DNA of 26,626 bases from a virus. Every line of letters starts with the position of its first letter. The stretch's first letter is position 1. The notes under the pieces were generated by a model. It saw only the letters and a list, made by a program, of their open reading frames with translations. It searched no databases and was not told where the DNA came from. The stretch is from positions 1 through 26,626 of IMG/VR virus record IMGVR_UViG_3300025282_000201. The stretch is one strand, 5' to 3'. A program made the translations under genes and the position numbers. This document shows, one piece after another, positions 1-9,804 of the stretch.

Positions 1-39
1 ATTATCGCTAGCACACCCCATACCACAATAGCCAAAAAT

Positions 40-180
40 TCAAGTATCGGCATTATCCTCTTGAGCATCTTTAAATTCTACCTTTTCCTGTAAATTTTCC
101 TGATTCCCGTAAAAAATTTCCTCTTCAATTGGCCAACCTTTTCCTTGATAGTTACTTAAGTCGTCAGAATAATCGTACAT
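40..180 (-). CDS. Small acidic hypothetical protein, 46 aa
   Basis: I do not recognise this protein. It reads from an ATG at 180 to a TGA at 40-42 and is acidic and hydrophilic, with no membrane segment. A purine-rich AAAGG lies about 8 nt upstream of the ATG, which supports the start. It is the last complete minus-strand gene before the left edge and lies just beyond a hairpin terminator (201-231). It may therefore be expressed by read-through or have no strong promoter of its own; I see no room for a promoter between the terminator and the start. Short, but its RBS and tight packing fit the neighbouring small genes. Confidence 0.5.
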   Translation of the reverse strand: MYDYSDDLSNYQGKGWPIEEEIFYGNQENLQEKVEFKDAQEDNADT

Positions 181-200
181 GATGCTTACCTTTCTGTGCT

Positions 201-231
201 TAAAAGACGCAACCCCCCGAAAGAGGTTGCG
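201..231 (-). terminator. Rho-independent terminator (minus strand)
   Basis: Read on the minus strand, CGCAACC pairs with GGTTGCG around a short loop, and the hairpin is followed by TCTTTT. It sits 40 bp downstream of the stop of the SH3-like gene and probably ends the transcript covering 272-883. There is no T-run on the plus strand, so it looks one-directional. Confidence 0.7.
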
Positions 232-271
232 CCCTATGAATCTAAGCCCTAGTGATATTTATCAGTATTAT

Positions 272-442
272 TTACTTGGCTAGGAACTCAGCTTTACTTT
301 GTCGATACGATTTGAAGTGGTCGCCATGATCCACACAAAATGCAGGCTCTGGTTTATTGCTGAATACTCGTTCAACTTTACCTTGCCGCACTTTATTATG
401 ATACACAAATTTGACGTTTTGTCCTACTTTTAGCTTTGACAT
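272..442 (-). CDS. Small SH3-like beta-barrel protein, 56 aa
   Basis: The protein starts MSKLKVGQNVKF and continues with a KVRQGKVERV segment, the hydrophobic/basic strand pattern of small SH3-like barrels in phage early regions. The exact role is unknown. I chose the ATG at 442 because GAGGG precedes it by about 5 nt. A longer reading from 481 would run 52 bp into the upstream gene without an obvious RBS. With the 442 start it overlaps the 3' end of the upstream gene by 13 bp, so the two are likely translationally coupled. The fold assignment is by pattern only. Confidence 0.65.
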   Translation of the reverse strand: MSKLKVGQNVKFVYHNKVRQGKVERVFSNKPEPAFCVDHGDHFKSYRQSKAEFLAK

Positions 443-693
443 TTTTCCCTCTGGTAAATGGTTCGGTTTTCCATTAAACATAACAAATCATTCCTATCTA
501 GTGGGGCTCTTCCTATTCGTTGTGGATAGCCCGCATCAATCCACATTTTCATCAGTTCTTCATCATCATTGTAAGGGCTTATGTCAGCGTACACCTCCTG
601 CCCGTTGGGCTTCTTGACTATATGCCATGCCTTGATATTGTCCTCTTCCCGATCATACTCTATGCGGCACTTGTGGTCTTTGTAATCAAACAT
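430..693 (-). CDS. Conserved-type phage hypothetical protein, 87 aa
   Basis: A soluble, mixed-charge protein. The central part (ADISPYND, then MWIDAGYPQRIG) resembles hypothetical proteins I associate with phage early regions, but I cannot name a function. The ATG at 693 has AAGGAG about 7 nt upstream. It also has its own near-perfect promoter (712-739) embedded in the end of the preceding gene. It overlaps the SH3-like gene by 13 bp, and the pair forms a short operon ending at the 201-231 terminator. Confidence 0.75.
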   Translation of the reverse strand: MFDYKDHKCRIEYDREEDNIKAWHIVKKPNGQEVYADISPYNDDEELMKMWIDAGYPQRIGRAPLDRNDLLCLMENRTIYQREKCQS

Positions 694-711
694 GGTTTCT
701 CCTTGTACTTT

Positions 712-739
712 ATTATACCACAGATTCTGGGTCTGTCAA
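712..739 (-). promoter_or_regulatory. Sigma70-type promoter inside the end of a gene
   Basis: Minus-strand TTGACA (734-739) and TATAAT (712-717) with a 16-bp spacer: both hexamers match consensus. The promoter overlaps the last codons of the 713-883 gene and the stop codon lies in the -10 box. It drives 430-693. The TGTGG just before the -10 also occurs in the 2437-2464 promoter. Confidence 0.85.
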
Positions 740-883
740 GTGCTGCAATGGATAATTATCCAAAAAGTCCGCAACACATTCGAGTTCCTCATCGGGAATC
801 TCATCGACTTCATTTGCCCATGTGTCGAAATCGTCGCAGTAGTATTCCTCGCAGCTAACTTCCGAATCAAAGTGATCAAACAT
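713..883 (-). CDS. Small acidic protein with a CEEYYC motif, 56 aa
   Basis: ATG at 883 is preceded by AAGGAG, and the stop TAA lies inside the next promoter. The protein is very acidic. Its N-terminus (FDHFDSEVSCEEYYCD) closely matches the N-terminus of the 3951-4256 gene (DHFDTEITCEEFYCDE) although the codons differ, so the motif is under selection. The two cysteines spaced CxxxxC could bind metal or form a disulphide; that is inference. It is the first gene after the module-head promoter at 924-951. Function unknown. Confidence 0.75.
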   Translation of the reverse strand: MFDHFDSEVSCEEYYCDDFDTWANEVDEIPDEELECVADFLDNYPLQHLTDPESVV

Positions 884-923
884 GATTGCTCCTTGGTCGT
901 GGGTTGTTTCTTCTTACTCCCCC

Positions 924-951
924 ATTATAACTATATATCGACCAAAGTCAA
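924..951 (-). promoter_or_regulatory. Module-head sigma70-type promoter (class 1)
   Basis: Minus strand TTGACT (946-951), 16 bp, TATAAT (924-929). The spacer carries GTCGATATATAGT, shared with the other module-head promoters. It lies just downstream (minus sense) of intergenic element R1 and 40 bp before the 713-883 gene. Confidence 0.85.
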
Positions 952-962
952 CCCCCACCATC

Positions 963-1072
963 AATAATTCTGAAAGATTTCCCACATTGTCATAAGTCGT
1001 TACTACATAAGGAGTTACGTCGAGCGCGGCCCGCCCCCATCGCCGTAAGTCGTTACAGCGTAAGGGTTTACG
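963..1072. repeat. Intergenic element R1 of a six-copy family
   Basis: Plus-strand reading: an AATAATTCTGAAAG leader, TAAGTCGTTA at 993, TAAGGAGTTA at 1008, a GC-rich core, TAAGTCGTTA at 1046 and TAAGGGTTTA at 1061. All four are TAA-N4-TTA dyads, so this is the most complete copy. It separates the end of the 1079-1258 gene from the promoter at 924-951. Confidence 0.9.
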
Positions 1073-1078
1073 TCAAGT

Positions 1079-1258
1079 TTACAATTCATCTCTAAGGTTA
1101 AGAAATTTGATGTGGTATTTTCCAAGTGGAATAAATTGCCAATTAAACTTTTCACCTATCCACTGTGCAATTGCAAAGGGATCATTTCCAATTTCTGTTG
1201 GAATTTCCACATTAATAACGCTTCCGGTACTTGGTCGCATAGCTTTACAAGTTATCAC
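1079..1258 (-). CDS. Hypothetical protein, 59 aa, GTG start
   Basis: A soluble protein with segments IPTEIGNDPFAIAQWIGE and FLNLRDEL; no family recognised. The GTG at 1258 is favoured because AAGGA precedes it and the stop TAG of the upstream miniprotein overlaps it by one base (TAGTG), a classic coupling arrangement. An internal ATG six codons later is the alternative start. It is the last gene of a four-gene overlapping run (1774 to 1079) and ends just before element R1. Confidence 0.65.
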   Translation of the reverse strand: MITCKAMRPSTGSVINVEIPTEIGNDPFAIAQWIGEKFNWQFIPLGKYHIKFLNLRDEL

Positions 1259-1350
1259 TAAAAATCCTTATCGTTATAGCTAACGTATATAATCGTAGTC
1301 CATACTCCAATCACAGCACCCAACCATAAAATAGTCCAAACTAAGGGCAT
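1258..1350 (-). CDS. Single-helix membrane miniprotein, 30 aa
   Basis: The product begins MPLVWTILWLGAVIGVW and is one hydrophobic helix (about residues 3-24) with a short charged tail, SYNDKDF. GAGGAG precedes the ATG by 5 nt. The gene overlaps the upstream gene by 10 bp and the downstream GTG by 1 bp, so it is embedded in an operon. It is one of six comparable miniproteins in this arm. Such peptides commonly act on membrane complexes, but nothing here specifies the target. Confidence 0.65.
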   Translation of the reverse strand: MPLVWTILWLGAVIGVWTTIIYVSYNDKDF

Positions 1351-1505
1351 AAAATCTCCTCTACTTGTTTTTGTGTGAGCTTAGTTATTTTCCCATTTTT
1401 ATCAGAGAAAATACAAACCACACCACCGCTCTTGGTGTTTTCAATTTTTGTAAAAGTCAATTCCGTACCATCAAACTCAATCTTGCTACCATAAGGGAAA
1501 TTCAT
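1341..1505 (-). CDS. Hypothetical protein, 54 aa
   Basis: A small beta-rich-looking protein (MNFPYGSKIEFDGTELTF, then GGVVCIFSDKNGKITKL). The alternation of hydrophobic and polar residues suggests a small barrel, but I cannot assign a family. AAGGA precedes the ATG at 1505, and the upstream gene stops 3 bp before it. Its 3' end overlaps the start of the 30-aa membrane miniprotein. Confidence 0.65.
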   Translation of the reverse strand: MNFPYGSKIEFDGTELTFTKIENTKSGGVVCIFSDKNGKITKLTQKQVEEILCP

Positions 1506-1507
1506 TT

Positions 1508-1774
1508 TTAGTTTTCCTTGAAGTTAAAATAATAACGTGGACCGTGTTGAAATTCTAGCGTACCGGCAACATTATCAGCTTTACGTTCCACAATAATATA
1601 TGGGGCCGCAAAACTCTTCGCTACAAAATCTTTTTGAAGTTGTTGTGTATTCCACACTTGTCCATACTCCGCTTCCAGCCGTACTCGTTCCGCATCCTCG
1701 TCTGAACTCTCTACCTCCGTGTTGATTCTAGTGACTTCGCTTCTGCGAATAGTTTCGGTTGGATCGTGGCTCAT
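1508..1774 (-). CDS. Conserved-type phage hypothetical protein, 88 aa
   Basis: The N-terminal half is acidic (VESSDEDAERVRLEAEYG). The C-terminal half has the pattern VWNTQQLQKDF, FAAPYIIVERK, LEFQHGPRYYFNF, which I associate with a recurrent phage hypothetical family of unknown function. I chose the ATG at 1774 because GGAG sits 6 nt upstream; the longer reading from 1810 would enter the structured RNA element. First gene of the 1774-1079 operon. Confidence 0.75.
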   Translation of the reverse strand: MSHDPTETIRRSEVTRINTEVESSDEDAERVRLEAEYGQVWNTQQLQKDFVAKSFAAPYIIVERKADNVAGTLEFQHGPRYYFNFKEN

Positions 1775-1803
1775 AGTTTTCTCCAAAAAATAAAGTGTAG
1801 GAT

Positions 1804-1907
1804 GCCCCACATCGGACTTGCACCGAGAATGTTTGCAGTGGCTACTTGTGGCTAGGTTACCGCACCATATCCACTAACCTATCAAACATCGTCTCTTTGA
1901 CCGGGGC
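1804..1907 (-). ncRNA. Structured RNA element with a tRNA-like T arm
   Basis: On the minus strand GCCCC (1903-1907) can pair with GGGGC (1804-1808) to close a 104-nt element. Inside are an 8-bp stem GATGTTTG/CAAACATT (1883-1890 with 1828-1835, one G-U), a perfect 7-bp stem TAGGTTA/TAACCTA (1875-1881 with 1853-1859) and a hairpin TCGG-TGCAAGT-CCGA (1812-1826) resembling a tRNA T arm. I could not fold a normal D arm or anticodon arm, so it is not a standard tRNA. It lies between the lipoprotein stop and the RBS of the 1508-1774 gene: a 5' leader element, a degenerate tRNA or an ncRNA. Confidence 0.4.
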
Positions 1908-2069
1908 TCAATATGCTCGTGATACTTCCTGTGAAATTTCGTAGTTAATGTGATCGTCTGGGAATGCGTGTCGTACCACAACCTTTGTAGTTGTAACACA
2001 ACCGTTCAGGAAAATCAACCCCCAAATAATAAGCAATACGCCGATATATCTCACCGTAGTTTTATTCAT
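1908..2069 (-). CDS. Small lipoprotein, 53 aa
   Basis: Starting at the ATG at 2069, the protein has a basic N-region (MNKTTVRY), a hydrophobic stretch (IGVLLIIWGLIFL) and a lipobox ending NGC with Cys at residue 24. That is the pattern for signal peptidase II processing. The mature part is about 30 residues (starting CVTTTKVVVRH) and would sit on a membrane face. Phage early lipoproteins can block receptors or exclude superinfection, as T5 Llp does; applying that here is inference. The start codon overlaps the stop of the upstream gene, and the RBS is a modest GGA. Confidence 0.7.
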   Translation of the reverse strand: MNKTTVRYIGVLLIIWGLIFLNGCVTTTKVVVRHAFPDDHINYEISQEVSRAY

Positions 2070-2406
2070 CTTCCATATCCAAATTGGTTCTTGCTGCAAA
2101 TTTTAATTGTGCCCGATACCGAGCGTCTTCATCCACATGAACCTTTGACCTATCAAACTCACCAGCTAAGTCAACGAACTGACCTATCGAATCGTACCTA
2201 CTTAGTTCATCGGCTTGTTCACGGTATAACTTGATATTTTCTTGCCGTTCTTGCTCATAATCTTTGGCGAATTGTTCACGCATATATTTTTCTTCAAGTT
2301 CCTTTTGGATTTTTTTGTTCTCTTCATCCCATTCCGCCAAGCTCTTACCATTGTATTCAAAGCATTCGGAAATAGTCGCTTCAAGTTCGGTCAGTTCGTA
2401 AGTCAT
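2062..2406 (-). CDS. Highly charged hypothetical protein, 114 aa
   Basis: A hydrophilic, Glu/Lys/Arg-rich protein. The segment EWDEENKKIQKELEEKYM onward to about residue 70 is probably helical or coiled coil. No catalytic motif is seen. The ATG at 2406 is preceded by AAGGA and lies about 30 nt downstream of a consensus promoter (2437-2464); an upstream in-frame ATG near 2448 falls at the promoter -10 and cannot be the start of that transcript. It heads an operon with the lipoprotein gene, which it overlaps by 8 bp. Confidence 0.75.
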   Translation of the reverse strand: MTYELTELEATISECFEYNGKSLAEWDEENKKIQKELEEKYMREQFAKDYEQERQENIKLYREQADELSRYDSIGQFVDLAGEFDRSKVHVDEDARYRAQLKFAARTNLDMEDE

Positions 2407-2436
2407 AATTTTTTCCTTCGTGTTAAGTGTCTCTTT

Positions 2437-2464
2437 ATTATACCACAAAATTCCTACTTGTCAA
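2437..2464 (-). promoter_or_regulatory. Sigma70-type promoter, perfect hexamers
   Basis: Minus strand TTGACA (2459-2464), 16-bp spacer, TATAAT (2437-2442). The spacer ends TGTGG, as in the 712-739 promoter, and lacks the CGATA motif of the module-head class. It drives 2062-2406 and probably everything down to 1079. Confidence 0.85.
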
Positions 2465-2482
2465 CCCCTGTAGCAGATAATT

Positions 2483-2737
2483 TTACTTTCTCAACAGGTT
2501 GTTACATTCAATCATATTGTCTGAGGGTGAGGGAGCATTACGGCAAAAAATCTCGTCGCTGATCAACCATCCAAACCATCCGTCTTCAGATCTTAAGAAT
2601 ACACTAGGAACGCCATCCATGCAAGCTGGATTGTCAAACGCTTCCAATTTAAACACGGGACCGTGTTCCCTAATTCTATCCTTAGTACGTTTACTTGCGT
2701 TTGGCATACAAGTAATTTCTGCCATTAAATCTAACAT
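2483..2737 (-). CDS. Hypothetical protein, 84 aa
   Basis: A soluble protein with four Cys spread along it and a segment VPSVFLRSEDGWFGWLISDE that suggests a small beta domain. I do not recognise a family. The ATG at 2737 lies 9 nt after the stop of the 34-aa gene, with AAGGG between the two; an ATG four codons later is a possible alternative. It is the second gene of the module that starts at promoter 2876-2903, and is followed by the internal promoter 2437-2464. Confidence 0.65.
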   Translation of the reverse strand: MLDLMAEITCMPNASKRTKDRIREHGPVFKLEAFDNPACMDGVPSVFLRSEDGWFGWLISDEIFCRNAPSPSDNMIECNNLLRK

Positions 2738-2746
2738 TTTGGACCC

Positions 2747-2851
2747 TTATCCTTTTGCTTGGCGAACCATTGCAGCCCAACGAGCTACGCTGATGTGAGC
2801 CGGGCGAACCTGAGTGAAGCGAATTCGGAGTTGAACTTGTGCGAGTGTCAT
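2747..2851 (-). CDS. 34-aa basic microprotein, copy 1
   Basis: This short ORF has a paralogue at 4952-5056 that is 26/34 identical by my alignment. Both begin MTLAQV, end in AMVRQAKG, and contain VRP and HISVARW. The variable positions cluster in residues 7-14. Each copy has an AAGGAA-type RBS at similar spacing and is the first gene after a class 1 promoter. The protein is basic with an amphipathic C-terminal half, so nucleic-acid or membrane-surface binding is possible. Conservation between copies is the main evidence that it is a real gene. Confidence 0.75.
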   Translation of the reverse strand: MTLAQVQLRIRFTQVRPAHISVARWAAMVRQAKG

Positions 2852-2875
2852 TGTTTATTTCCTTGTGATGCTCTT

Positions 2876-2903
2876 ATTATAACTACTTATCGACAAAAGT
2901 CAA
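2876..2903 (-). promoter_or_regulatory. Module-head sigma70-type promoter (class 1)
   Basis: Minus strand TTGACT (2898-2903), 16 bp, TATAAT (2876-2881), with GTCGATAAGTAGT in the spacer. It drives the first 34-aa gene and lies next to element R2. Confidence 0.85.
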
Positions 2904-2913
2904 TACCTACAAT

Positions 2914-3022
2914 CAACAATTCTGAAAAGTTTCCGAGATAGCTGTAAGTCGTTGGTATGAAAGGAGTTACGGCGAGCGTGGCCCGCCCCCGTCGTCGTAA
3001 GTCGTTACTACGTAAGGGTTTA
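2914..3022. repeat. Intergenic element R2
   Basis: Same order as R1: a CAACAATTCTGAAAAG leader, TAAGTCGTT at 2945, AAAGGAGTTA at 2960, a GC-rich core, TAAGTCGTTA at 2998 and TAAGGGTTTA at 3013. The last dyad supplies the TAA stop codon (3020-3022) of the neighbouring minus-strand miniprotein gene. Confidence 0.9.
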
Positions 3023-3127
3023 GGAGTATCTCATGTATAGCTCAAAAATATAAGATCCTAACATAATCCACAATGCCAGTACGATCAGCCATCTCTGTAG
3101 TCTAGTTATTCTTGAATGAAATGTCAT
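3020..3127 (-). CDS. Single-helix membrane miniprotein, 35 aa
   Basis: A basic N-terminus (MTFHSRITRLQRW) is followed by one hydrophobic helix (LIVLALWIMLGSYIF) and a short tail (ELYMRYS). The positive-inside rule suggests the N-terminus faces the cytoplasm. AAGG precedes the ATG at 3127. Its stop codon lies within the last dyad of element R2. It sits just beyond a hairpin terminator (3136-3168), so expression may depend on read-through. No family recognised. Confidence 0.6.
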   Translation of the reverse strand: MTFHSRITRLQRWLIVLALWIMLGSYIFELYMRYS

Positions 3128-3135
3128 TTTTCTAC

Positions 3136-3168
3136 CTTAAAAAGGGAAACCCCCATATAGGGGGCTTT
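3136..3168 (-). terminator. Probable intrinsic terminator (minus strand)
   Basis: Minus strand AAGCCCCC-TATAT-GGGGGTTT forms an 8-bp stem (one G-U) followed by CCCTTTTT. It lies 3' of the 3245-3430 gene and just upstream of the 35-aa miniprotein, so it may attenuate rather than fully stop transcription. Confidence 0.55.
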
Positions 3169-3176
3169 AGTAGGGC

Positions 3177-3220
3177 TGGGTAAGATGGGACATTGAGCAA
3201 CAGAGCTTTATCCCATCCCA
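3177..3220 (-). other. Long imperfect stem-loop in a 3' untranslated region
   Basis: On the minus strand TGGG/CCCA and ATGGGA/TCCCAT pair around an internal AGC/GCT stem, giving a three-part hairpin of 44 nt. It lies between the stop of 3245-3430 and the terminator at 3136-3168. It may stabilise the transcript end or be part of a small RNA. Confidence 0.4.
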
Positions 3221-3244
3221 CCTGCTTCACCTATTTCCCTTTAT

Positions 3245-3430
3245 TTATGATTTAGTATATACGTTTACTCCAACCGACACAACTCGCCCATTCAACGCAA
3301 TCTGCTGATTGCCGCGCGTGGTAGCTAGAATTTCATTCTTGCCGCTAGCCGATAGCGTTCCCTTGGCCGACAAGGGCAGCACGATGGTCATTGTGTTTGT
3401 TTCGTCATTCTTAGTAACTTGAATTGACAT
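3245..3430 (-). CDS. Conserved-type small phage protein, 61 aa
   Basis: The pattern TMTIVLPL, then SASGKNEILATTRGNQ, then VVSVGVNVY resembles small phage and bacterial hypothetical proteins that share an SASGKT..ASTRGN core; no function is known to me. AGGAG precedes the ATG at 3430 at normal spacing. A promoter at 3533-3560 leaves a leader of about 95 nt. It is the only gene between that promoter and the terminator at 3136-3168, so it is probably transcribed mainly alone. Confidence 0.75.
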   Translation of the reverse strand: MSIQVTKNDETNTMTIVLPLSAKGTLSASGKNEILATTRGNQQIALNGRVVSVGVNVYTKS

Positions 3431-3532
3431 CTTTGCATCTCCTAAAAAGTAAAGAAAGTAAAAGTAAAACCTATTCAGTAGCTTTTAAGCTCTACCCCGT
3501 AGGGTCCAGTTAGGTCTTGGTTCTGTGCTTTT

Positions 3533-3560
3533 ATTTTACCATAGTAATTGTGAAAGTCAA
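3533..3560 (-). promoter_or_regulatory. Sigma70-type promoter
   Basis: Minus strand TTGACT (3555-3560), 16 bp, TAAAAT (3533-3538). The spacer ends TATGG, like the internal promoters at 712 and 2437. It serves the 3245-3430 gene. Confidence 0.75.
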
Positions 3561-3577
3561 CCCCCCAGATCATTTTT

Positions 3578-3688
3578 TTACATATTAGATACAAGTACCA
3601 AAGCTCCCACGGCGGAAGCAATCAAGATCATACTTGTAAAAACAAACATTATTACAATTTCCTTGATCCAATAAAATAGAGTTCTCAT
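3578..3688 (-). CDS. Single-helix membrane miniprotein, 36 aa (paralogue A)
   Basis: It is 24/36 identical to the product of 4837-4947. Both start MR, contain IKE then IMFV, and share the core TSMILI-SA-GALVL; both end NM. The helix spans about residues 11-33 and is flanked by a short basic/acidic N-terminus. The ATG at 3688 has AGGA upstream, and the gene ends 18 bp before the -35 of the next promoter. The core resembles the 6668-6781 miniprotein (VLIASAVL). Conservation between copies supports a real membrane function of unknown nature. Confidence 0.75.
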   Translation of the reverse strand: MRTLFYWIKEIVIMFVFTSMILIASAVGALVLVSNM

Positions 3689-3714
3689 TTTATTTTCCTT
3701 AAAAAAGTTAATTG

Positions 3715-3945
3715 TCATTCACAACCCCAACGGCCATGACCTGTTACCATTTCCGCTGTGATCTCGGGAACCGCTTCCCAACTTAAAATCTCACAAAACG
3801 GATTAAATCTATTATAGTGAAAACCTCCACATTTCAGATCGTTTGCGAGTCTCTCTCCAGACACTTGCTGGTGATTCTCAACCCGACCTTTTGGGCTTAC
3901 TATCCGAACATTGTACATTCTGTTTAATTCAACTTTATTTGACAT
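3715..3945 (-). CDS. Hypothetical protein, 76 aa
   Basis: A soluble protein beginning MSNKVELNRMYNVRIVSPKG, with KCGGFHYNRFNPFCEILSW in the middle. Nothing identifies a family. GGAG lies 9 nt before the ATG at 3945; the longer reading from a TTG at 3960 would bury that RBS. The upstream gene stops 5 bp before this ATG, so the two are co-transcribed. Confidence 0.7.
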   Translation of the reverse strand: MSNKVELNRMYNVRIVSPKGRVENHQQVSGERLANDLKCGGFHYNRFNPFCEILSWEAVPEITAEMVTGHGRWGCE

Positions 3946-3950
3946 TTTAA

Positions 3951-4256
3951 TTAACTCCAAAGATTTTTTAGTTTATCCAAATTTTCAGTGTATTCTTTAT
4001 GAGCTTTTTTTAGCTCATTTTTTTCAATTTCCTTTAGACATCTAGCAGCTTCTTTTTCTGCTCTTACTCCGCGAAAACCCTTAGCTTTAAGGTGATTTAA
4101 AATCTTAATCCAATCTTCTTTTGTTTTTTGACTTCTTTTTTCTAGATTCATTTTCTTTTCCTTTTCTTCAAAAAATAGTGTTCTTTCTTCCCATGCGAGT
4201 CGGTCCTCGTCACAGTAGAATTCTTCGCAAGTAATTTCCGTGTCAAAATGGTCCAT
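3951..4256 (-). CDS. Charged coiled-coil protein with a CEEFYC motif, 101 aa
   Basis: The N-terminal ~25 residues (MDHFDTEITCEEFYCDEDRL) match those of the 713-883 gene. The rest is Lys/Glu-rich and probably helical or coiled coil (EEKEKKMNLEKRSQK, then ELKKAHKEYTENLDKLKN). The ATG at 4256 has AGGAG close upstream; the in-frame ATG at 4340 lies in a leader with no RBS. The shared N-terminus on different bodies suggests a portable interaction module. First gene of the 4256-3578 operon. Function unknown. Confidence 0.7.
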   Translation of the reverse strand: MDHFDTEITCEEFYCDEDRLAWEERTLFFEEKEKKMNLEKRSQKTKEDWIKILNHLKAKGFRGVRAEKEAARCLKEIEKNELKKAHKEYTENLDKLKNLWS

Positions 4257-4348
4257 TTTCTCTCCTGTGGTTGTAGTTCGTTCAGTGTCTCTTAAACCTA
4301 ATCTTGCGATTCCAGTCGAACTTGTGTTAACGCTTTTCATAATAGTAT

Positions 4349-4360
4349 ATAGTGCACTAT
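4349..4360. promoter_or_regulatory. Perfect 12-bp palindrome, possible operator
   Basis: ATAGTGCACTAT is a perfect palindrome about 90 bp upstream of the ATG at 4256, close to TATACT- and TATTAT-like boxes on the minus strand. It could be a repressor site for the 4256-3578 operon. No second copy was noticed in the window. Confidence 0.35.
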
Positions 4361-4482
4361 TCGTGCCATTCAGAATAAATGATTTTTGTGTTGTCGTAAG
4401 TCGTTTCGTACCATCGAGTTAAAATCTTGAAAATAGTTTTTTAGTAACGTTTCATTAAATTACCTTAACGTCATAATGGCAG

Positions 4483-4511
4483 ATTTTAGCACCCCTATGC
4501 CAAAATGGCAA
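4483..4511 (-). promoter_or_regulatory. Candidate sigma70-type promoter
   Basis: Minus strand TTGCCA (4506-4511), 17 bp, TAAAAT (4483-4488). The -35 lies in a TGCCA/TGGCA inverted repeat, which could be an operator. It would leave a leader of more than 200 nt before the gene at 4256. Confidence 0.5.
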
Positions 4512-4543
4512 ACCGCATTTAAGTCGTTTGATATCATATACTT

Positions 4544-4569
4544 AGGAGAAATTAGTCGGCTTTTCTCCT
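4544..4569. repeat. Inverted repeat, 8-bp arms
   Basis: AGGAGAAA (4544-4551) and TTTCTCCT (4562-4569) flank a 10-nt loop. There is no T-run on either side, so it is not a typical terminator. Confidence 0.6.
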
Positions 4570-4640
4570 GTCAAAGTGGCAGGGAAGGATTCTCATTATG
4601 AGATTAGATTGTGTTTGGCACATGAGTTGCTCTGCGGAAT

Positions 4641-4711
4641 CGTCGTAAGTCGTTAGTATCAAAGGAGTTACGGCGAGCGGGGCGGGGCTCCATCGCCCTA
4701 AGTCGTTACCA
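4641..4711. repeat. Intergenic element R3 (truncated on the right)
   Basis: TAAGTCGTTA at 4646, AAAGGAGTTA at 4661, a GC-rich core and TAAGTCGTTA at 4699 keep the 15- and 53-bp offsets. The fourth dyad and the AATTCTGAAAG leader are absent, and no gene stop overlaps it. Confidence 0.85.
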
Positions 4712-4836
4712 CATCAGCACTTATAAAATAACTCGCGTGCCCTGAGCACCTACCGTATCTCGCAGAAGTCTACCATGGGTAAGACTCTCATTCAGTGGCG
4801 ATTAGCCCTAGCCTTACGGCTCCAGTTGAGCGTATC

Positions 4837-4947
4837 TTACATGTTGTTTAGTAGTACCAGTGCCCCTATGGCAGATGTGATCAGTATCATACTGGTCCAG
4901 ACAAACATGATAGCTACTTCTTTGATGATCCAGATAACGTTACGCAT
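4837..4947 (-). CDS. Single-helix membrane miniprotein, 36 aa (paralogue B)
   Basis: Paralogue of 3578-3688 (24/36 identical), with the same length, the same IKE/IMFV motif before the helix and the same TSMILI-SA-GALVL core. AAAGGG precedes the ATG at 4947 and overlaps the end of the second 34-aa gene, so the two are a tight pair behind promoter 5081-5109. The protein is predicted to span the membrane once (about residues 11-33). The duplication argues for a dosage- or partner-specific role, but none can be named. Confidence 0.75.
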   Translation of the reverse strand: MRNVIWIIKEVAIMFVWTSMILITSAIGALVLLNNM

Positions 4948-4951
4948 TGTC

Positions 4952-5056
4952 TTATCCCTTTGCTTGACGAACCATTGCACTCCAACGTGCAACACTGATG
5001 TGAGTCGGACGAACTGTACTGTACTTGATGTAGAGTTTAACTTGTGCGAGTGTCAT
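4952..5056 (-). CDS. 34-aa basic microprotein, copy 2
   Basis: Second copy of the microprotein at 2747-2851, identical in length. The N-terminal MTLAQV, the VRP and HISVARW segments and the C-terminal AMVRQAKG are unchanged; residues 7-14 differ. AAGGAA precedes the ATG at 5056, as in copy 1, and it is again the first gene after a class 1 promoter. Here the next gene is a membrane miniprotein rather than the 84-aa protein found after copy 1, so the module heads are conserved while their followers differ. Confidence 0.75.
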   Translation of the reverse strand: MTLAQVKLYIKYSTVRPTHISVARWSAMVRQAKG

Positions 5057-5080
5057 TGTTTCTTTCCTTGTTATGCCCTT

Positions 5081-5109
5081 AGTATATACTAGTTATCGGC
5101 GTTTGTCAA
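5081..5109 (-). promoter_or_regulatory. Module-head sigma70-type promoter (class 1)
   Basis: Minus strand TTGACA (5104-5109), 17 bp, TATACT (5081-5086), with GCCGATAACTAGT in the spacer. It drives 4952-5056 and 4837-4947. Confidence 0.85.
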
Positions 5110-5121
5110 TAGGGTAGGCCA

Positions 5122-5230
5122 CTTATTATTAAAGATTACCGAGATAGTTATAAGTCGTTGCTGTGTAAGGAGTTACGTCGCCGGGGCCGGGGCGCCGTCG
5201 CCCTAAGTCCTTTGGTAGTATAGGGTTATG
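5122..5230. repeat. Intergenic element R4
   Basis: A degenerate leader (AAAGATTACCGAGATAG), TAAGTCGTT at 5151, TAAGGAGTTA at 5166, a strongly GC-rich core (CGCCGGGGCCGGGGC) and a variant TAAGTCCTT at 5204, again 53 bp from the first. The stop codon of the 5226-5333 gene lies in its right end. Confidence 0.85.
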
Positions 5231-5333
5231 ACCAGATGTCTCTGTCTTCCCGTGTTGCCTTCCATATGCCGCGCCATACCATAACCACAAGCACTACCCA
5301 CACAACCATAAAGGAAATAAAGTTCCAATCCAT
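5226..5333 (-). CDS. Single-helix membrane miniprotein, 35 aa
   Basis: One hydrophobic helix at the N-terminus (FISFMVVWVVLVVMVW) is followed by a charged tail (KATREDRDIWS), suggesting N-out/C-in topology. Its ATG at 5333 lies 7 nt after the stop of the upstream gene, and the SD is weak. Tight packing and a membrane-type composition support it as a gene. Its sequence is not close to the 3578/4837 pair. Confidence 0.6.
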   Translation of the reverse strand: MDWNFISFMVVWVVLVVMVWRGIWKATREDRDIWS

Positions 5334-5340
5334 TTTAATT

Positions 5341-5496
5341 TTAATATCCTAAGAAGTTAAGTATCTCATAACCATAGTACTCCTCCCTATCGCCACGCTC
5401 TTGCGTGAACTCATAGAAGGGGGCATCGTGTGCCTCTAGTTCAAGTCGTGCTTCCTGTCGTGATACAATCGCTTCACATGCTTCGTGATAATCCAT
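5341..5496 (-). CDS. Small acidic hypothetical protein, 51 aa
   Basis: An acidic, probably helical protein (EACEAIVSRQEARLELEAHD, then a Tyr-rich C-terminus). GGAGG lies 5 nt before the ATG at 5496; another ATG nine nt upstream would destroy that spacing. It is the first gene behind promoter 5544-5572 and forms a pair with the 35-aa membrane miniprotein. No family recognised. Confidence 0.7.
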   Translation of the reverse strand: MDYHEACEAIVSRQEARLELEAHDAPFYEFTQERGDREEYYGYEILNFLGY

Positions 5497-5543
5497 ATCA
5501 ACCTCCATTCTCTACGAGTGTTAGTGTTGTTTGTCATTCTCTT

Positions 5544-5572
5544 ATTTTAGCAAAATTGCGATTGGTTGTCAA
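5544..5572 (-). promoter_or_regulatory. Sigma70-type promoter inside the end of a gene
   Basis: Minus strand TTGACA (5567-5572), 17 bp, TAAAAT (5544-5549). The whole promoter lies in the last codons of the 5547-5744 gene, whose TAA stop forms the first half of the -10 box. It drives 5341-5496 and 5226-5333. Confidence 0.8.
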
Positions 5573-5744
5573 TAGCTCTTTTTTTCATAATCTCTTGAGC
5601 TTTCGATTCGCAACCGCCGTCATTATGCCAGCGAGTACCTTCAATAACCTTACCATCAAACTTTGCAACAAAGTGCCGAAAGTGTACCTTTACTACTTCG
5701 ATACCAAATACGTTTCCGCCATTGTTGAATGTGATTTTAGTCAT
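5547..5744 (-). CDS. Hypothetical protein, 65 aa
   Basis: A basic, beta-rich-looking protein (MTKITFNNGGNVFGIEVV, then HFRHFVAKFDGKVIEGTRWH) with a helical basic tail. It could be another small barrel, but no family is recognised. AAAGGAAATGAG precedes the ATG at 5744. A longer reading from 5780 would start at or before the predicted transcription start and is rejected. Its 3' end contains the next promoter. Confidence 0.7.
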   Translation of the reverse strand: MTKITFNNGGNVFGIEVVKVHFRHFVAKFDGKVIEGTRWHNDGGCESKAQEIMKKRAIDNQSQFC

Positions 5745-5786
5745 CTCATTTCCTTTCGTGTTATCATTGTTTCTTATCATGCTCTT

Positions 5787-5815
5787 AGTATATACTATAT
5801 ATCGTCATTTGTCAA
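5787..5815 (-). promoter_or_regulatory. Module-head sigma70-type promoter (class 1)
   Basis: Minus strand TTGACA (5810-5815), 17 bp, TATACT (5787-5792), with GACGATATATAGT in the spacer. The sequence after the -10 (AAGAGCATGA) resembles that of the other class 1 promoters. Confidence 0.85.
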
Positions 5816-5828
5816 TAGCTATGGCCAC

Positions 5829-5945
5829 TAATTCCCAGAGATTCCCAAAGATTTCCAAAGTAGTTGTAAGTCGTTACTGTATAAGGAGTTACGTCGCCGG
5901 GGCCGGGCCGCGCTCGTCGTAAGTCGTTTGATAGTAAGGGTTTAT
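5829..5945. repeat. Intergenic element R5
   Basis: TAAGTCGTTA at 5867, TAAGGAGTTA at 5882, a GC-rich core, TAAGTCGTT at 5920 and TAAGGGTTTA at 5935. The last dyad provides the TAA stop (5942-5944) of the 153-aa gene. The leader holds short tandem copies related to AGATTCCCAAAG. Confidence 0.9.
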
Positions 5946-6403
5946 GGCACAACCACACATCGGTTTCTTTTTCCCCCTGTTTTTTTATATTGAGGAAGAA
6001 GCTTGGTAAAGAAATTACTTACACTTCTTGTTTTTATATTATATTGATTATCTAAAGTTTTTTTCAACCAAGCGAATGGAACTCGGGTTGATCGCGGGTT
6101 TAATGCTCTATACTCTGAGAACAGTTTAAGAAGTAAAGTCTTTTTTTGTTCTTCTGTTACATAATTTGGTCGAATATTATCTATACGTTCTTCGGGTTCT
6201 ATAAGGTTAAACATTTCTTTAACGTTTTCTAATTCTTTATATTGTTCTAGCTTAATTTGATTTTCTTTAAGCCTATTGTTAATAGCGTTGGCATTATTGT
6301 GTAGCTTAACTATTTCTTGCTGTATTACTTTTGCTTGATTGTTTAATTGTTGTTGAGCATTCTTTAAGTTGACAAAGTCTTGTAGGTCTTTTGCTGAGTA
6401 CAT
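5942..6403 (-). CDS. Coiled-coil hypothetical protein, 153 aa
   Basis: Residues about 5-70 are Gln/Asn/Lys-rich with heptad-like spacing (AQQQLNNQAKVIQQEIVKL) and probably form a coiled coil. Residues about 80-150 look like a compact basic helical domain (TLLLKLFSEYRALNPRST, then SVSNFFTKLLPQYKK). This layout would suit a DNA- or host-protein-binding oligomer, but no family is recognised. GGAG precedes the ATG at 6403, which lies 1 nt after the upstream stop. Last gene of the module driven by promoter 6821-6848. Confidence 0.75.
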   Translation of the reverse strand: MYSAKDLQDFVNLKNAQQQLNNQAKVIQQEIVKLHNNANAINNRLKENQIKLEQYKELENVKEMFNLIEPEERIDNIRPNYVTEEQKKTLLLKLFSEYRALNPRSTRVPFAWLKKTLDNQYNIKTRSVSNFFTKLLPQYKKTGGKRNRCVVVP

Positions 6404-6404
6404 T

Positions 6405-6656
6405 TTAATTTCTCCAGTGTGGATCGTCGTGTACGGATAGAATCATGTCTTTTGTAAACTCATCATGTAATCTATCGAGAGCTTCATCTAGTTCGTTCTC
6501 ATTGTGACATATGACAGATAGCCCATCATTCACACTATCACACCTATGCCATACCTCAACAATCCTATTGCCTACCTCAATCTCAATATCATGGGCTTGT
6601 GCCCACTTGATTGTATTAGGGTGTACTCTTTTCTTTGCATCAAAATTAAAGTCCAT
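6405..6656 (-). CDS. Acidic hypothetical protein, 83 aa
   Basis: A soluble acidic protein beginning MDFNFDAKKRVHPNTIKW, with a central GNRIVEVWHR strand-like segment and an acidic helical C-terminal half (NENELDEALDRLHDEF). AAAGGA lies before the ATG at 6656. It is the middle gene of a three-gene run and nearly abuts both neighbours. No function can be assigned. Confidence 0.7.
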   Translation of the reverse strand: MDFNFDAKKRVHPNTIKWAQAHDIEIEVGNRIVEVWHRCDSVNDGLSVICHNENELDEALDRLHDEFTKDMILSVHDDPHWRN

Positions 6657-6667
6657 TGTAGTTTCCT

Positions 6668-6781
6668 TTACTGGGTGATAAGGCTAGTGAGAACTGCGGA
6701 AGCAATCAGTACAATGCTTGCGGGAATGAAGATTGAAACCAGAAGATATACGCCGTACAAAACTCTGCTAAGATTAATCAT
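6668..6781 (-). CDS. Single-helix membrane miniprotein, 37 aa
   Basis: The product is almost entirely hydrophobic (VLYGVYLLVSIFIPAS, then VLIASAVL) with a short tail. AAAGGAG precedes the ATG at 6781 and the module-head promoter lies just upstream. The SIVLIASAVLTSLI part resembles the SMILIASAVGALVL core of the 3578 miniprotein, so it may be a distant member of that family. It is first in an operon with 6405-6656 and 5942-6403. Confidence 0.65.
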   Translation of the reverse strand: MINLSRVLYGVYLLVSIFIPASIVLIASAVLTSLITQ

Positions 6782-6820
6782 GGCAACTCCTTTTGTGTGA
6801 TTGTTGTTTGTCATGCTCTC

Positions 6821-6848
6821 ATTATATACTATTATCGTCTCATTGCAA
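6821..6848 (-). promoter_or_regulatory. Module-head promoter (class 1), weaker -35
   Basis: Minus strand TTGCAA (6843-6848), 16 bp, TATAAT (6821-6826), with GACGATAATAGT in the spacer. It drives 6668-6781, 6405-6656 and 5942-6403. Confidence 0.75.
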
Positions 6849-6859
6849 TAGCAGTATGA

Positions 6860-6970
6860 AATAATTCTGAAAGAATAACAGAATAGCCATAACTCTATAC
6901 ACTGTAAGGAGTTACGTCGCCGGGGCCGGGGCTCGGTCGCCCTAAGTCCTTTGGTGGGTATAGCTTAGGG
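6860..6970. repeat. Intergenic element R6 (degenerate)
   Basis: It has the AATAATTCTGAAAG leader, a degraded first dyad (TAACTCTAT at 6890), an intact TAAGGAGTTA at 6905, a GC-rich core and TAAGTCCTT at 6943. The 15- and 53-bp offsets are kept although the outer dyads have drifted. Confidence 0.8.
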
Positions 6971-6978
6971 TGAGCGAA

Positions 6979-7032
6979 CCGTTTTGAGCTGCCGAGGCAG
7001 CAAGTTGGGCCGTTTTGAGCTGTCGAGGCAGC
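6979..7032. repeat. Two 23-bp direct repeats, each with an inner inverted repeat
   Basis: Copies at 6979-7001 and 7010-7032 differ at one base and are 31 bp apart start to start. Each begins CCGTTTTGAGCTG and contains an inverted repeat (GCTGCC-GA-GGCAGC in the first, AGCTG/CAGCT in the second). The spacing of about three helical turns suits paired protein-binding sites. Confidence 0.65.
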
Positions 7033-7171
7033 TACAGATCGCATATATAGGGTGGGGTTTTCTAATTCAAGTGAATTCTCGTATAAAATAGGAAAAAAGC
7101 CGAGGTGGTTCAAACAAACTAAAACCCATCAAACCAAATGTCCACTTTTATCCTAAAGATAGTGATAACAC

Positions 7172-7468
7172 TCACCACCCCTTCTTCGGTTGCTCTAAGT
7201 CCCTATCTTTTCTATAGTCCACGACCAATTCTTCCCCCTCTTCAATTTCCCTAAGAGTCACTAAATATTTAAAATTTCCCAGAGTAAGAGATCGACAGTT
7301 GGGTTTGCCCGAATGGTTATAAGAACAGTTCGGCACTAGATTAAGCCACTCAAAAGCGCCGCTTGTCTTTTTATGGGTCTCGAAAAGAACTTTGTTTTCG
7401 GGTATAATTTCCGTCGCAAAGATACCCTTTCCATGTACCTCACTATCTTTGAACTCACACCAGCTCAT
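7172..7468 (-). CDS. Minimal SET-domain protein (candidate lysine methyltransferase), 98 aa
   Basis: The SET hallmarks are in order: HGKGIFA (residues 12-18, cofactor-binding N-motif), NHSGKPN (51-57) and GEELVVDY (78-85, with the catalytic-type Tyr). The family transfers methyl groups from S-adenosylmethionine to lysine in proteins. At 98 residues it is close to the minimum for the fold and lacks an obvious post-SET cysteine cluster. GGAGG precedes the ATG at 7468, which overlaps the upstream HTH stop by 4 bp. The substrate is unknown; a host or phage protein is inference. Confidence 0.85.
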   Translation of the reverse strand: MSWCEFKDSEVHGKGIFATEIIPENKVLFETHKKTSGAFEWLNLVPNCSYNHSGKPNCRSLTLGNFKYLVTLREIEEGEELVVDYRKDRDLEQPKKGW

Positions 7469-7662
7469 TTTTCCTCCAGTTCGCATCTGCCTCGTCCGCT
7501 TTTTTTAACAATACCAAGACGTTGTCTAAGCTTACGTACAGCATCTAATGAAATAGTGCGTTGATTACGCAAGCTTAATTCTTTAGCTAAATCTTTATCT
7601 TTAATATGATGAGCATTTTCCCTAATAAATCGCTTATCTTCAGTAGTCCATTTATTATTCAT
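7465..7662 (-). CDS. Small HTH DNA-binding protein, 65 aa
   Basis: The segment EDKRFIRENAHHIKDKDLA followed by RTISLDAVRKLRQRLG reads as a Myb/SANT-like or resolvase-type HTH used by phage terminase-like and regulatory proteins. The C-terminal tail is basic (KKSGRGR). It resembles the N-terminal HTH of the 8646-9443 product. No clear Shine-Dalgarno is seen before the ATG at 7662. Position at the divergent boundary and coupling to the SET gene (4-bp overlap) suggest a regulator of either arm. Confidence 0.7.
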   Translation of the reverse strand: MNNKWTTEDKRFIRENAHHIKDKDLAKELSLRNQRTISLDAVRKLRQRLGIVKKSGRGRCELEEK

Positions 7663-7686
7663 TTACAAGAGAGCCTATTTTGTGTA

Positions 7687-7715
7687 TTAATAAAGTGGTC
7701 ATTTGCATATATAAT
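7687..7715 (+). promoter_or_regulatory. Candidate plus-strand promoter for the right arm
   Basis: TTAATA (7687-7692), 17 bp, TATAAT (7710-7715) lies 25 bp before the first right-arm ATG. The -35 is weak. The -10 is embedded in an AT-rich stretch, so a phage-specific promoter is also possible. Confidence 0.5.
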
Positions 7716-7739
7716 ATTATAGTCAAGGAGATCATAAGA

Positions 7740-7916
7740 ATGAAAAAAATTATTCAAGCTACAGAACCCATAGCCATTGCTGCTAGCGGTTTAGACGAGG
7801 CCGTAATGACTCAAGCAAGTATTTCCACCGAAAAAGATATCATAGACCTTTTAGGAGAACAAAATGAGATTAAAGATAGTATCGGAAGGGACGGGAGATA
7901 CAACGAAAGTAGTTGA
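7740..7916 (+). CDS. Hypothetical protein, 58 aa
   Basis: A small acidic protein beginning MKKIIQATEPIAIAASGLDE; no family recognised. CAAGGAG lies 9 nt before the ATG at 7740, so this start is preferred over the in-frame extension to 7680. It is the first gene of the plus-strand arm, and its last 53 bp overlap the next gene. Confidence 0.65.
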   Translation: MKKIIQATEPIAIAASGLDEAVMTQASISTEKDIIDLLGEQNEIKDSIGRDGRYNESS

Positions 7917-8127
7917 TGCAGATACCGGAGAAGAGGTAGAAAATATTATAGGCCTCGAATTGAGCATGGACGCTTTTAATGTAGAAGCAGCTATTTTAGT
8001 TAGTGACCCCCATTTAAATATTGAAAATTTAGAAGCACGGGAGATTAGACAAGGTGATTCCGCAGGGTATGACGGAAGAACAGGTGATCCAGATAATAAA
8101 CAACATAGCGAATCGATTAGCAAATAA
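7864..8127 (+). CDS. Hypothetical protein, 87 aa
   Basis: The N-terminal half (MRLKIVSEGTGDTTKVVDAD, then IIGLELSMDAF) looks like a small beta domain; the C-terminal tail is polar and likely disordered. AGGAG precedes the ATG at 7864, which supports a real gene despite 53- and 74-bp overlaps with its neighbours. Function unknown; early position in the right arm suggests a regulatory or structural accessory role. Confidence 0.65.
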   Translation: MRLKIVSEGTGDTTKVVDADTGEEVENIIGLELSMDAFNVEAAILVSDPHLNIENLEAREIRQGDSAGYDGRTGDPDNKQHSESISK

Positions 8128-8677
8128 ATTTAAGTTTGGTTATCATGCATTAGAAGATATGAAACAACAGGCACGCTTATTTGCTTGGGAAGGTATTGAA
8201 AATTACGATGGCATCAGACCTCTAGAAAACTTTCTTTGGACACATGTTAGAAACCGTCTTTATAACTTTAAGAGAAATAACTTTGGAAGGCCGGATAAGC
8301 CTTGCGATTCCTGTCCATATTTCGATATAGCTTTTGAAAACGATAAAGGATATGGATGTAGGGCATATGATAATCATGAAGAATGTGATTTGTATATGGG
8401 ATGGTTAAAAAGAAACACTGCAAAACGCAATATCATGAACACTGCACAACTAGACCTAGATATCAAACAGTCCGATGCTATAGAGGATATGATAGATAAA
8501 AAACAAATTTTTAACCTAGTTGATAAATCTATTCCAGTACAATATAGAGAAGATTGGATTAGGCTGGTAAATAATCTCAAATTAGCAAAGGTTAAACGCG
8601 ATATACTTATTGAAGTTATCATACAAATATTCAAGGAGAATAACATTGACGAAGAAGCGTGGAAAACTGTCGATTGA
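8054..8677 (+). CDS. T4 gp55-like late sigma factor candidate, 207 aa
   Basis: Residues about 20-75 match sigma region 2: ALEDMKQQARLFAWEGIENY, then PLENFLWTHVRNRLYNFKR. Region 2 binds RNA polymerase and the promoter -10. A Cys4 cluster follows (C84, C87, C102, C111), probably zinc-binding. The rest is helical, and there is no region 4, as in T4 gp55. The likely role is directing host RNA polymerase to phage late promoters. GTG at 8054 is chosen because GGGAG lies 10 nt upstream; an ATG five codons later is the alternative. Overlaps 74 bp with the preceding gene. Confidence 0.75.
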   Translation: MIPQGMTEEQVIQIINNIANRLANKFKFGYHALEDMKQQARLFAWEGIENYDGIRPLENFLWTHVRNRLYNFKRNNFGRPDKPCDSCPYFDIAFENDKGYGCRAYDNHEECDLYMGWLKRNTAKRNIMNTAQLDLDIKQSDAIEDMIDKKQIFNLVDKSIPVQYREDWIRLVNNLKLAKVKRDILIEVIIQIFKENNIDEEAWKTVD

Positions 8678-9443
8678 CGAAATGAACTTTATTCGGCAAA
8701 ATTGTTTCAATATTTCCATAGAAGAAATTGCTGAAACTTTAAATAGGACTAAAACGCCGGTACAAAAGTTTATCGACAAAGAAAATCTCAAAATGCGCAA
8801 TATGAGTGACGATGAACATCTTCTTGTAGGGCTAAGAGACCGCTATTATTATAAGGAACTTAAAAAACAGTTCGGAGATCCCGAATTAATTTTTTTCGAA
8901 CACCAGTGGATTGACTACTTTAAACAATTCTCTGAGGACGTTACTCATACAGAGGAAATGGAAATACTAGAGGTTATTAGAACAGAGGTGCTTATCAATA
9001 GAGGCATGGAAGACCGCCAAGAAGTTTTAAGAAACATCGCTAGATTAAATAAACTTATTGAAGACGAAATGGATAAACCGCCAGCAACGCGCGACACGCA
9101 AGCGCTAGCTTCATTCCAAACTCAACTAGGCGCGGCTATATCATCTAAGTCCGCGTACATTAATGAGCACGAAAAGTTGTTAACAAAAAAAGAGCGGCTT
9201 TTGAAAGATCTTAAAGGTACAAGGGAACAGAGGAAAAGAAATGCCGATGATGCGAAGACGAATTTTACTTCGTGGTTGCGTCAGTTAGACAGTAAGGAAT
9301 TTAGACAGCAAGAAGGATTTGATATGGAAGTTCATCGGGTAGCGGCTGAAAAGGCAATGGATAAGCTTGCTCAGTATCACGAATATGAAGACGGCACTGT
9401 CGATCAGCCAATGTTAAATTCAGACACCTTTATTGAGGAGTAA
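8646..9443 (+). CDS. HTH/coiled-coil protein, candidate small terminase, 265 aa
   Basis: The N-terminus has an HTH-like segment (LSIDEMNFIRQN, then IEEIAETLNRTKTPVQKFID). A long helical middle (about residues 110-205) contains oligomerisation-type repeats, and the C-terminus is acidic. This order, DNA-binding domain then coiled coil, and the position before the packaging genes fit a small terminase subunit, but metabolic genes intervene and no signature proves it. The TTG at 8646 is preferred: AAGGAG lies 7 nt upstream. The longer reading from 8610 lacks this. It overlaps the sigma gene by 32 bp. Confidence 0.6.
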   Translation: MTKKRGKLSIDEMNFIRQNCFNISIEEIAETLNRTKTPVQKFIDKENLKMRNMSDDEHLLVGLRDRYYYKELKKQFGDPELIFFEHQWIDYFKQFSEDVTHTEEMEILEVIRTEVLINRGMEDRQEVLRNIARLNKLIEDEMDKPPATRDTQALASFQTQLGAAISSKSAYINEHEKLLTKKERLLKDLKGTREQRKRNADDAKTNFTSWLRQLDSKEFRQQEGFDMEVHRVAAEKAMDKLAQYHEYEDGTVDQPMLNSDTFIEE

Positions 9444-9444
9444 T

Positions 9445-9804
9445 ATGACATCTAAAACTCAGGAAGAAGTTCAGGAATGGATAGTTCAATGGTTAGTAGA
9501 TGTTGCAGAAGTGTCAAGGGAGTCTATTGAACTTGATAAGCCGTTTGCAGACTATCGCTTAGACTCGTTAACGGCGGTTGAGTTTAGTGGCGATATCGAA
9601 GAGTGGTTAGATATTACGGTAACAGCAACGGTTCTTTGGAATCATCCGACATTGCGCCATATGACTATATATCTAGCAGAACGTTCTAGTGGTCAAACAG
9701 AAGTCAAAAAGCTTTTTGAGCCTACTACAGGAGCTGTGGAGGCGATTTTGGCAGGTGTTGAAAACGTGAGCGATGAAGAAGCTAAAAAATTATTGGAGGA
9801 ATAG
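9445..9804 (+). CDS. Acyl carrier protein, PKS type, 119 aa
   Basis: The four-helix carrier fold is clear: EEVQEWIVQWLVDV, then FADYRLDSLTAVEFSGDIEE with the phosphopantetheine-attachment Ser41 in a DSL motif, then NHPTLRHMTIYLAE. It resembles the carrier domains of type I polyketide synthases, including cyanobacterial ones, more than fatty-acid AcpP. The C-terminal tail (NVSDEEAKKLLEE) resembles PKS C-terminal docking peptides, so it may plug into a host synthase; that is inference. GAGGAG precedes the ATG at 9445. First of a three-gene cassette with a methyltransferase and GDP-mannose dehydratase. Confidence 0.85.
   Translation: MTSKTQEEVQEWIVQWLVDVAEVSRESIELDKPFADYRLDSLTAVEFSGDIEEWLDITVTATVLWNHPTLRHMTIYLAERSSGQTEVKKLFEPTTGAVEAILAGVENVSDEEAKKLLEE

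Follow-up and report, generated by a model that had tools for sequence, protein, structure and literature searches.

Two 34-residue open reading frames of an uncultured phage belong to a family of small, basic, probably early-expressed proteins

Introduction

Do two very short, similar open reading frames (ORFs) in a phage genome encode proteins and, if so, of what kind? The question is raised by the window analysed here, the whole 26,626-base stretch of an IMG/VR phage record, for which an original prediction held that the ORFs at 2747-2851 and 4952-5056, each at the head of a module, probably represent a so far unrecognised family of early microproteins in phages. Small phage genes are a known kind, with over two million reported (PMC11323111); the family itself is absent from the libraries that we searched.

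Results

Both ORFs were confirmed on the minus strand, each running from ATG to TAA over 105 nt and encoding 34 amino acids, of which 26 of 34 are identical between the two (hereafter copies A and B; Table 1). Although short, an ORF of this length may still be within reach of gene callers. A tblastn comparison of the copies gave an E-value of about 2e-14, so their likeness is not due to chance. As predicted, they share a ribosome-binding site (AAGGA) and a promoter type, with near-consensus sigma-70 -10 boxes ending 24 nt before the ATG in both cases, and each is the first gene behind its own promoter. Module A is short, as a 12/12 promoter follows its second gene at 2464-2437. Variation between the copies had been placed at residues 7-14, which holds for six of the eight differences (residues 7, 9 and 11-14); residues 18 and 26 differ too.

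Table 1. Features of the two microprotein loci in the window
Feature	Position	Strand	Description
Microprotein gene, copy A	2747..2851	-	MTLAQVQLRIRFTQVRPAHISVARWAAMVRQAKG; ortholog in G003/G004
Microprotein gene, copy B	4952..5056	-	MTLAQVKLYIKYSTVRPTHISVARWSAMVRQAKG; syntenic counterpart in G048
Second gene of module A	2483..2737	-	84 aa; relatives in G048 and G003 lie downstream of the lone microprotein gene there
Second gene of module B	4837..4947	-	36 aa, hydrophobic, MRNVIWIIKEVAIMFVWTSM...; not related to its counterpart in module A
Promoter of copy A	2876..2903	-	TTGACT-16-TATAAT, TTGACTTTTGTCGATAAGTAGTTATAAT; TCGATA element in spacer
Promoter of copy B	5081..5109	-	TTGACA-17-TATACT, TTGACAAACGCCGATAACTAGTATATACT; CCGATA element in spacer
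Upstream repeat cassette A	2925..3024	-	half-site pair CGTAA(C/G)TC(C/G)TT-N6-AACGACTTA, twice, 53 bp apart, GC-rich core between
Upstream repeat cassette B	5131..5230	-	same element as cassette A
Duplicated block A	2746..3006	-	ORF, leader, promoter and operators
Duplicated block B	4951..5212	-	counterpart of block A

The likeness extends upstream of the ORFs: blocks A and B are 75% identical in DNA across about 263 bp, and the similarity ends at the ORF stop codon, which indicates that the ORF was duplicated together with its promoter and operator repeats. Two phages with a single copy bear on the history of this duplication. In G048, the genes upstream of the microprotein are those that precede copy B in the window (5341-5508 and 5226-5333), and downstream there is one other gene and then a relative of window gene 2483-2737, which lies behind copy A; in G003, the single copy has the context of copy A. 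The simplest reading is that one ancestral unit was duplicated and then separated in the window's lineage, perhaps through recombination between repeated cassettes; synonymous distances are too noisy for dating the duplication.

Intergenic cassettes of about 100 nt occur six times in the window (907-1072, 2859-3024, 4626-4725, 5131-5230, 5847-5946 and 6870-6969), upstream of early promoters. Most contain a pair of imperfect inverted repeats, CGTAASTCSTT-N6-AACGACTTA, at a spacing of 53 bp around a GC-rich core. The cassette resembles an operator used throughout the phage and is a possible substrate for module shuffling. A second early gene pair, apparently paralogous, was also seen in the window at 713-883 and 3951-4256 (minus strand), with the acidic N-termini MFDHFDSEVSCEEYYCDD and MDHFDTEITCEEFYCDE.

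Relatives of the microprotein were gathered through terminase relatives and then by iterated searches with growing alignments, yielding 18 distinct members spread over 17 further phage contigs, a count that leaves out the window itself and G002. Bases 1-8851 of the window are 99.3% identical to loci in two records, G001 (57 kb; locus L003) and G002 (L004), and the collections may omit records very near the window. The G001 record, nearly identical to the window, also carries a tmRNA gene (L014, 14649-14990; tag AETSFALAA) and genes for tRNA-Asp, tRNA-Leu and tRNA-Arg. G003 and G004, at about 70-88% DNA identity over matching stretches, have one copy of the microprotein each, and one per contig is the rule except in the window's own lineage. 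Members are 34-51 amino acids long, carry a net charge of +2 to +6 in every case, and share M1, T2, P17, I20, R24, W25 and M28 at fixed spacing (18/18 distinct members). A DNA pattern written for M1-T2, P17, I20, R24-W25, [A/G]27 and M28 retrieved 20 IMG/VR stretches, namely 19 true members and one chance match. The motifs HISVARW and AMVRQAKG, originally taken to be fixed, are fixed in the window pair only: in the family H19 can be N and V22 can be P, and M28 is the only invariant residue of AMVRQAKG. HISVARW-x-AMVRQAKG would therefore be too narrow a query for the whole family.

The pattern of nucleotide change is that of protein-coding sequence. Copy A and its G003 ortholog differ at 14 nucleotides, distributed 2/1/11 over the three codon positions (pN/pS about 0.09), so that third positions dominate. 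The value was 0.06 for G049 against G050 and 0.08-0.43 for other pairs, giving 0.06-0.43 in 13 of the 14 pairs tested; the remaining pair, G003 and G004, has synonymous differences only (pN/pS 0). The A-B pair, whose synonymous and non-synonymous changes it had been proposed to compare, has a higher pN/pS, 0.43, its replacements falling mostly at residues 7-14, which in the structural model described below span the last part of helix 1 and the first residues of the loop. Stops or frameshifts in relatives, which would speak against a gene, were sought as well: members have zero internal stops, and the lone frameshift lies near the stop in G004, where an extra A in a run replaces the last residue with a short tail (...QAKRIENAQ), which is due to a sequencing error or else alters the C terminus slightly. 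Taken together, the substitutions point clearly to purifying selection on the protein sequence, and we consider it nearly certain that this is a genuine family of protein-coding genes.

Two readings that dispense with a functional protein are affected by these results. Small size and the frameshift in the last codons of one relative would fit chance ORFs, or remnants of larger genes kept through duplication, but the 18 members evolve under strong purifying selection and none of the libraries has a longer relative; this reading is already refuted by the codon-position pattern and is exceedingly improbable. Alternatively, the ORF could be a cis-acting leader peptide whose translation, rather than its product, controls the module through attenuation or transcript stabilisation. 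The ORF is indeed short, first in its module and equipped with a good ribosome-binding site, and the duplication took only promoter and ORF, the genes that follow the copies being different. Against this, amino acids are kept while synonymous sites change, downstream genes are not conserved, a new promoter lies right after the ORF in four phages (G052, G053, G045 and G010), an Rfam scan of the early arm gave no match, and a confident fold is predicted, which together make a leader peptide very unlikely.

The link between microprotein genes and their promoter type extends beyond the window. Sigma-70-like early promoters carry YCGATA in their spacer at 951, 2903, 5109 and 5815 of the window (minus strand) and in relatives, and TTGAC-N-YCGATA-N-TATAAT promoters number 1-9 per phage record compared with 0-0.4 in shuffled sequence. 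YCGATR lies no more than 75 nt upstream of the microprotein gene in 15 of 18 members (5.8% of random positions), and at least two operator half-sites (CGTAASTCSTT) lie upstream in 12 of 18 (4.7% of random positions), random positions being a lenient control for promoter linkage, as many early genes there follow such promoters. Exceptions to the position directly behind YCGATR are the G054 member, which is second in its unit, and those of G025 and G053, in which CGATA is displaced relative to the predicted promoter. In three loci, L110 (G049), L111 (G050) and L108 (G017), the -10 box ends just 7-9 nt before the microprotein ATG, and these transcripts may be leaderless.

Such tight linkage to promoter type and operators, in a basic protein with an invariant arginine, would be expected if the microprotein were a DNA-binding regulator of early promoters, acting at the operator half-sites or YCGATA as an autorepressor or activator. 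Yet G032 and G042 have the promoter type with no gene detected (the early arm of G042 is truncated), G051 and G045 have the gene with no recognisable operators, and two helices in 34 residues fall short of a standard helix-turn-helix domain, with no match to a helix-turn-helix family. We regard a DNA-binding regulator as unlikely. An obligatory regulator of this promoter class is weakened in particular by G032, an 81-kb record from this phage group that shares the promoters and the sigma-like gene and has no detectable copy, which also implies that the microprotein is not obligatory, or not essential everywhere.

On every contig that also includes structural genes, the microprotein gene belongs to the arm divergent from them and is oriented away from the junction; the sigma-like gene with which the structural arm begins is some 1-11 kb distant. 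From the strong sigma-70 promoters and this position divergent from the structural operon, early expression is likely. The sigma-like gene (8054-8677, plus strand, near the start of the structural operon) matched a PHROG sigma factor profile (E 1.7e-4) and Pfam Sigma70_r2 just below the cut-off (E 1.4e-4); it is kept in all relatives reaching that region, and its product is possibly a phage late sigma factor. Other genes seen in the window encode a SET-domain protein (7172-7486, minus strand), an acyl carrier protein (9433-9804, plus) and an FkbM-type methyltransferase (9805-10713, plus). An ORF of at least 2,036 codons with repetitive coding sequence (20519-26626, plus; six-frame list) runs past the window end; judging by its position, it may encode a tail or adhesin protein.

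The microprotein is kept where terminase identity is only 44-50% and nearly all other tested early genes are gone. A 65-aa ORF (7465-7662) is the only other tested early gene of the window to reach the remote relatives G049 and G050, and G051 has the microprotein even though it lacks relatives of all the window genes tested. This persistence in remote relatives places it among the most widely retained early genes of the phage group. It also bears on the main rival to the explanation that we favour, a counter-defence or host-inhibiting effector directed at a specific host protein outside transcription, such as a protease, a nuclease, a cell division protein or a defence system. Effectors of this kind usually turn over fast, whereas the microprotein is kept across phages down to 44% terminase identity. 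The neighbours are small proteins of rapid turnover, as an effector's might be, and small phage proteins often act in this way (PMC11323111). PADLOC gave no match, its models being of defence rather than counter-defence proteins. On this evidence, an effector role outside transcription is conceivable and rather doubtful.

AlphaFold2 confidently predicts a two-helix hairpin for both members modelled, from thin input alignments of 15-18 rows: copy A has helix 3-12, loop 13-21 and helix 22-33 (pLDDT 86.2), and the remote G014 member (38 aa) has helices 3-12 and 22-35 (pLDDT 92.9). In these models the core and caps are likely formed by I20, S/T21, W25, M28 and hydrophobic residues at 3, 6, 10 and 12, with P17 in the loop. 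R24 is invariant without an invariant acidic partner, which suggests that it makes a contact.

Foldseek found no significant structural neighbour and VIA-align no Z of 2 or more. The first-ranked Foldseek match, ribosomal protein S18 (1g1x_C), resembles the microprotein in a helix-loop-helix stretch and a P-x-x-I-T motif; it was rejected at E 6.6, TM 0.38 and a profile comparison probability of 0.1%. HeH/LEM/SAP domains (PF12949) are likewise about 35 aa long, have the same helix-loop-helix order and occur in phages, and a 34-aa viral 'HeH/LEM' model was among the weak Foldseek matches, with poor superposition (rmsd 8.1, E 4.1). The HeH domain was set aside as being without sequence support, since none of nine members scanned matched Pfam at E up to 5; PF12949 also had no match on nine member-bearing or related phage records, a search in which its own controls were silent too. 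PDB sequence matches (peroxiredoxin, Vip2) were short chance stretches.

Library searches gave no credible relative. Three query members found none in 50,697 isolated-phage records, where two remote members gave chance matches only and the microprotein region had no DNA match; two scans of species genomes likewise found none. The best PHROG E-value was 0.037 and the best NCBIfam E-value 0.014 (a transporter, by chance). Nothing was found in the literature on the motif or the source sample number. The proposal that these early phage microproteins form a family not recognised before is thus borne out by 18 members, protein-level selection and the lack of a library match, with 'early' expression as the inferred element. 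The family is new relative to the libraries searched; metagenomic small-gene catalogues may already contain it as an unnamed cluster.

Discussion

The explanation that we consider best, with about an even chance of holding as a whole, is that the microprotein is a small basic helix-loop-helix ligand of a conserved partner, made from early operator-controlled promoters. The two ORFs are paralogs in a family of small basic proteins, each predicted to be a free-standing hairpin, encoded in first position behind strong, operator-controlled sigma-70 promoters in the early arm of a group of uncultured tailed phages. Early in infection, the hairpin would bind its partner via its basic face and the invariant R24. 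Among partners, the transcription machinery of host or phage would be the first candidate, given the sigma-70 region 2-like gene and the gain from weakening host transcription; as the actual target, to which gene context points, it is a tentative suggestion that we would not expect to hold. Copy B, in which most of the change is in helix 1, may differ somewhat in its partner or affinity. A more specific version is improbable: a minimal two-helix modulator of host RNA polymerase/sigma-70 that would aid handover from host-sigma early promoters to the phage sigma-like factor, with copy B adapted to another set of promoters or another partner.

The microprotein can be compared with a known class of small phage proteins that includes T7 Gp0.4, lambda Kil, lambda Orf73/TraR and Aqs1 (PMC11323111). 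Those are phage-encoded, shorter than 100 aa and bind one host protein, and some are made early. The microprotein is shorter than most, is found in uncultured phages only and showed no sequence relation to isolated-phage proteins.

A suspicious pair of tiny ORFs has become a testable protein family with a confidently predicted fold, small enough for chemical synthesis, and a family of 34-residue proteins proved traceable by translated search and codon statistics without any cultured member. Its retention amid almost wholly different early genes suggests that the target, whether of host or phage origin, is conserved.
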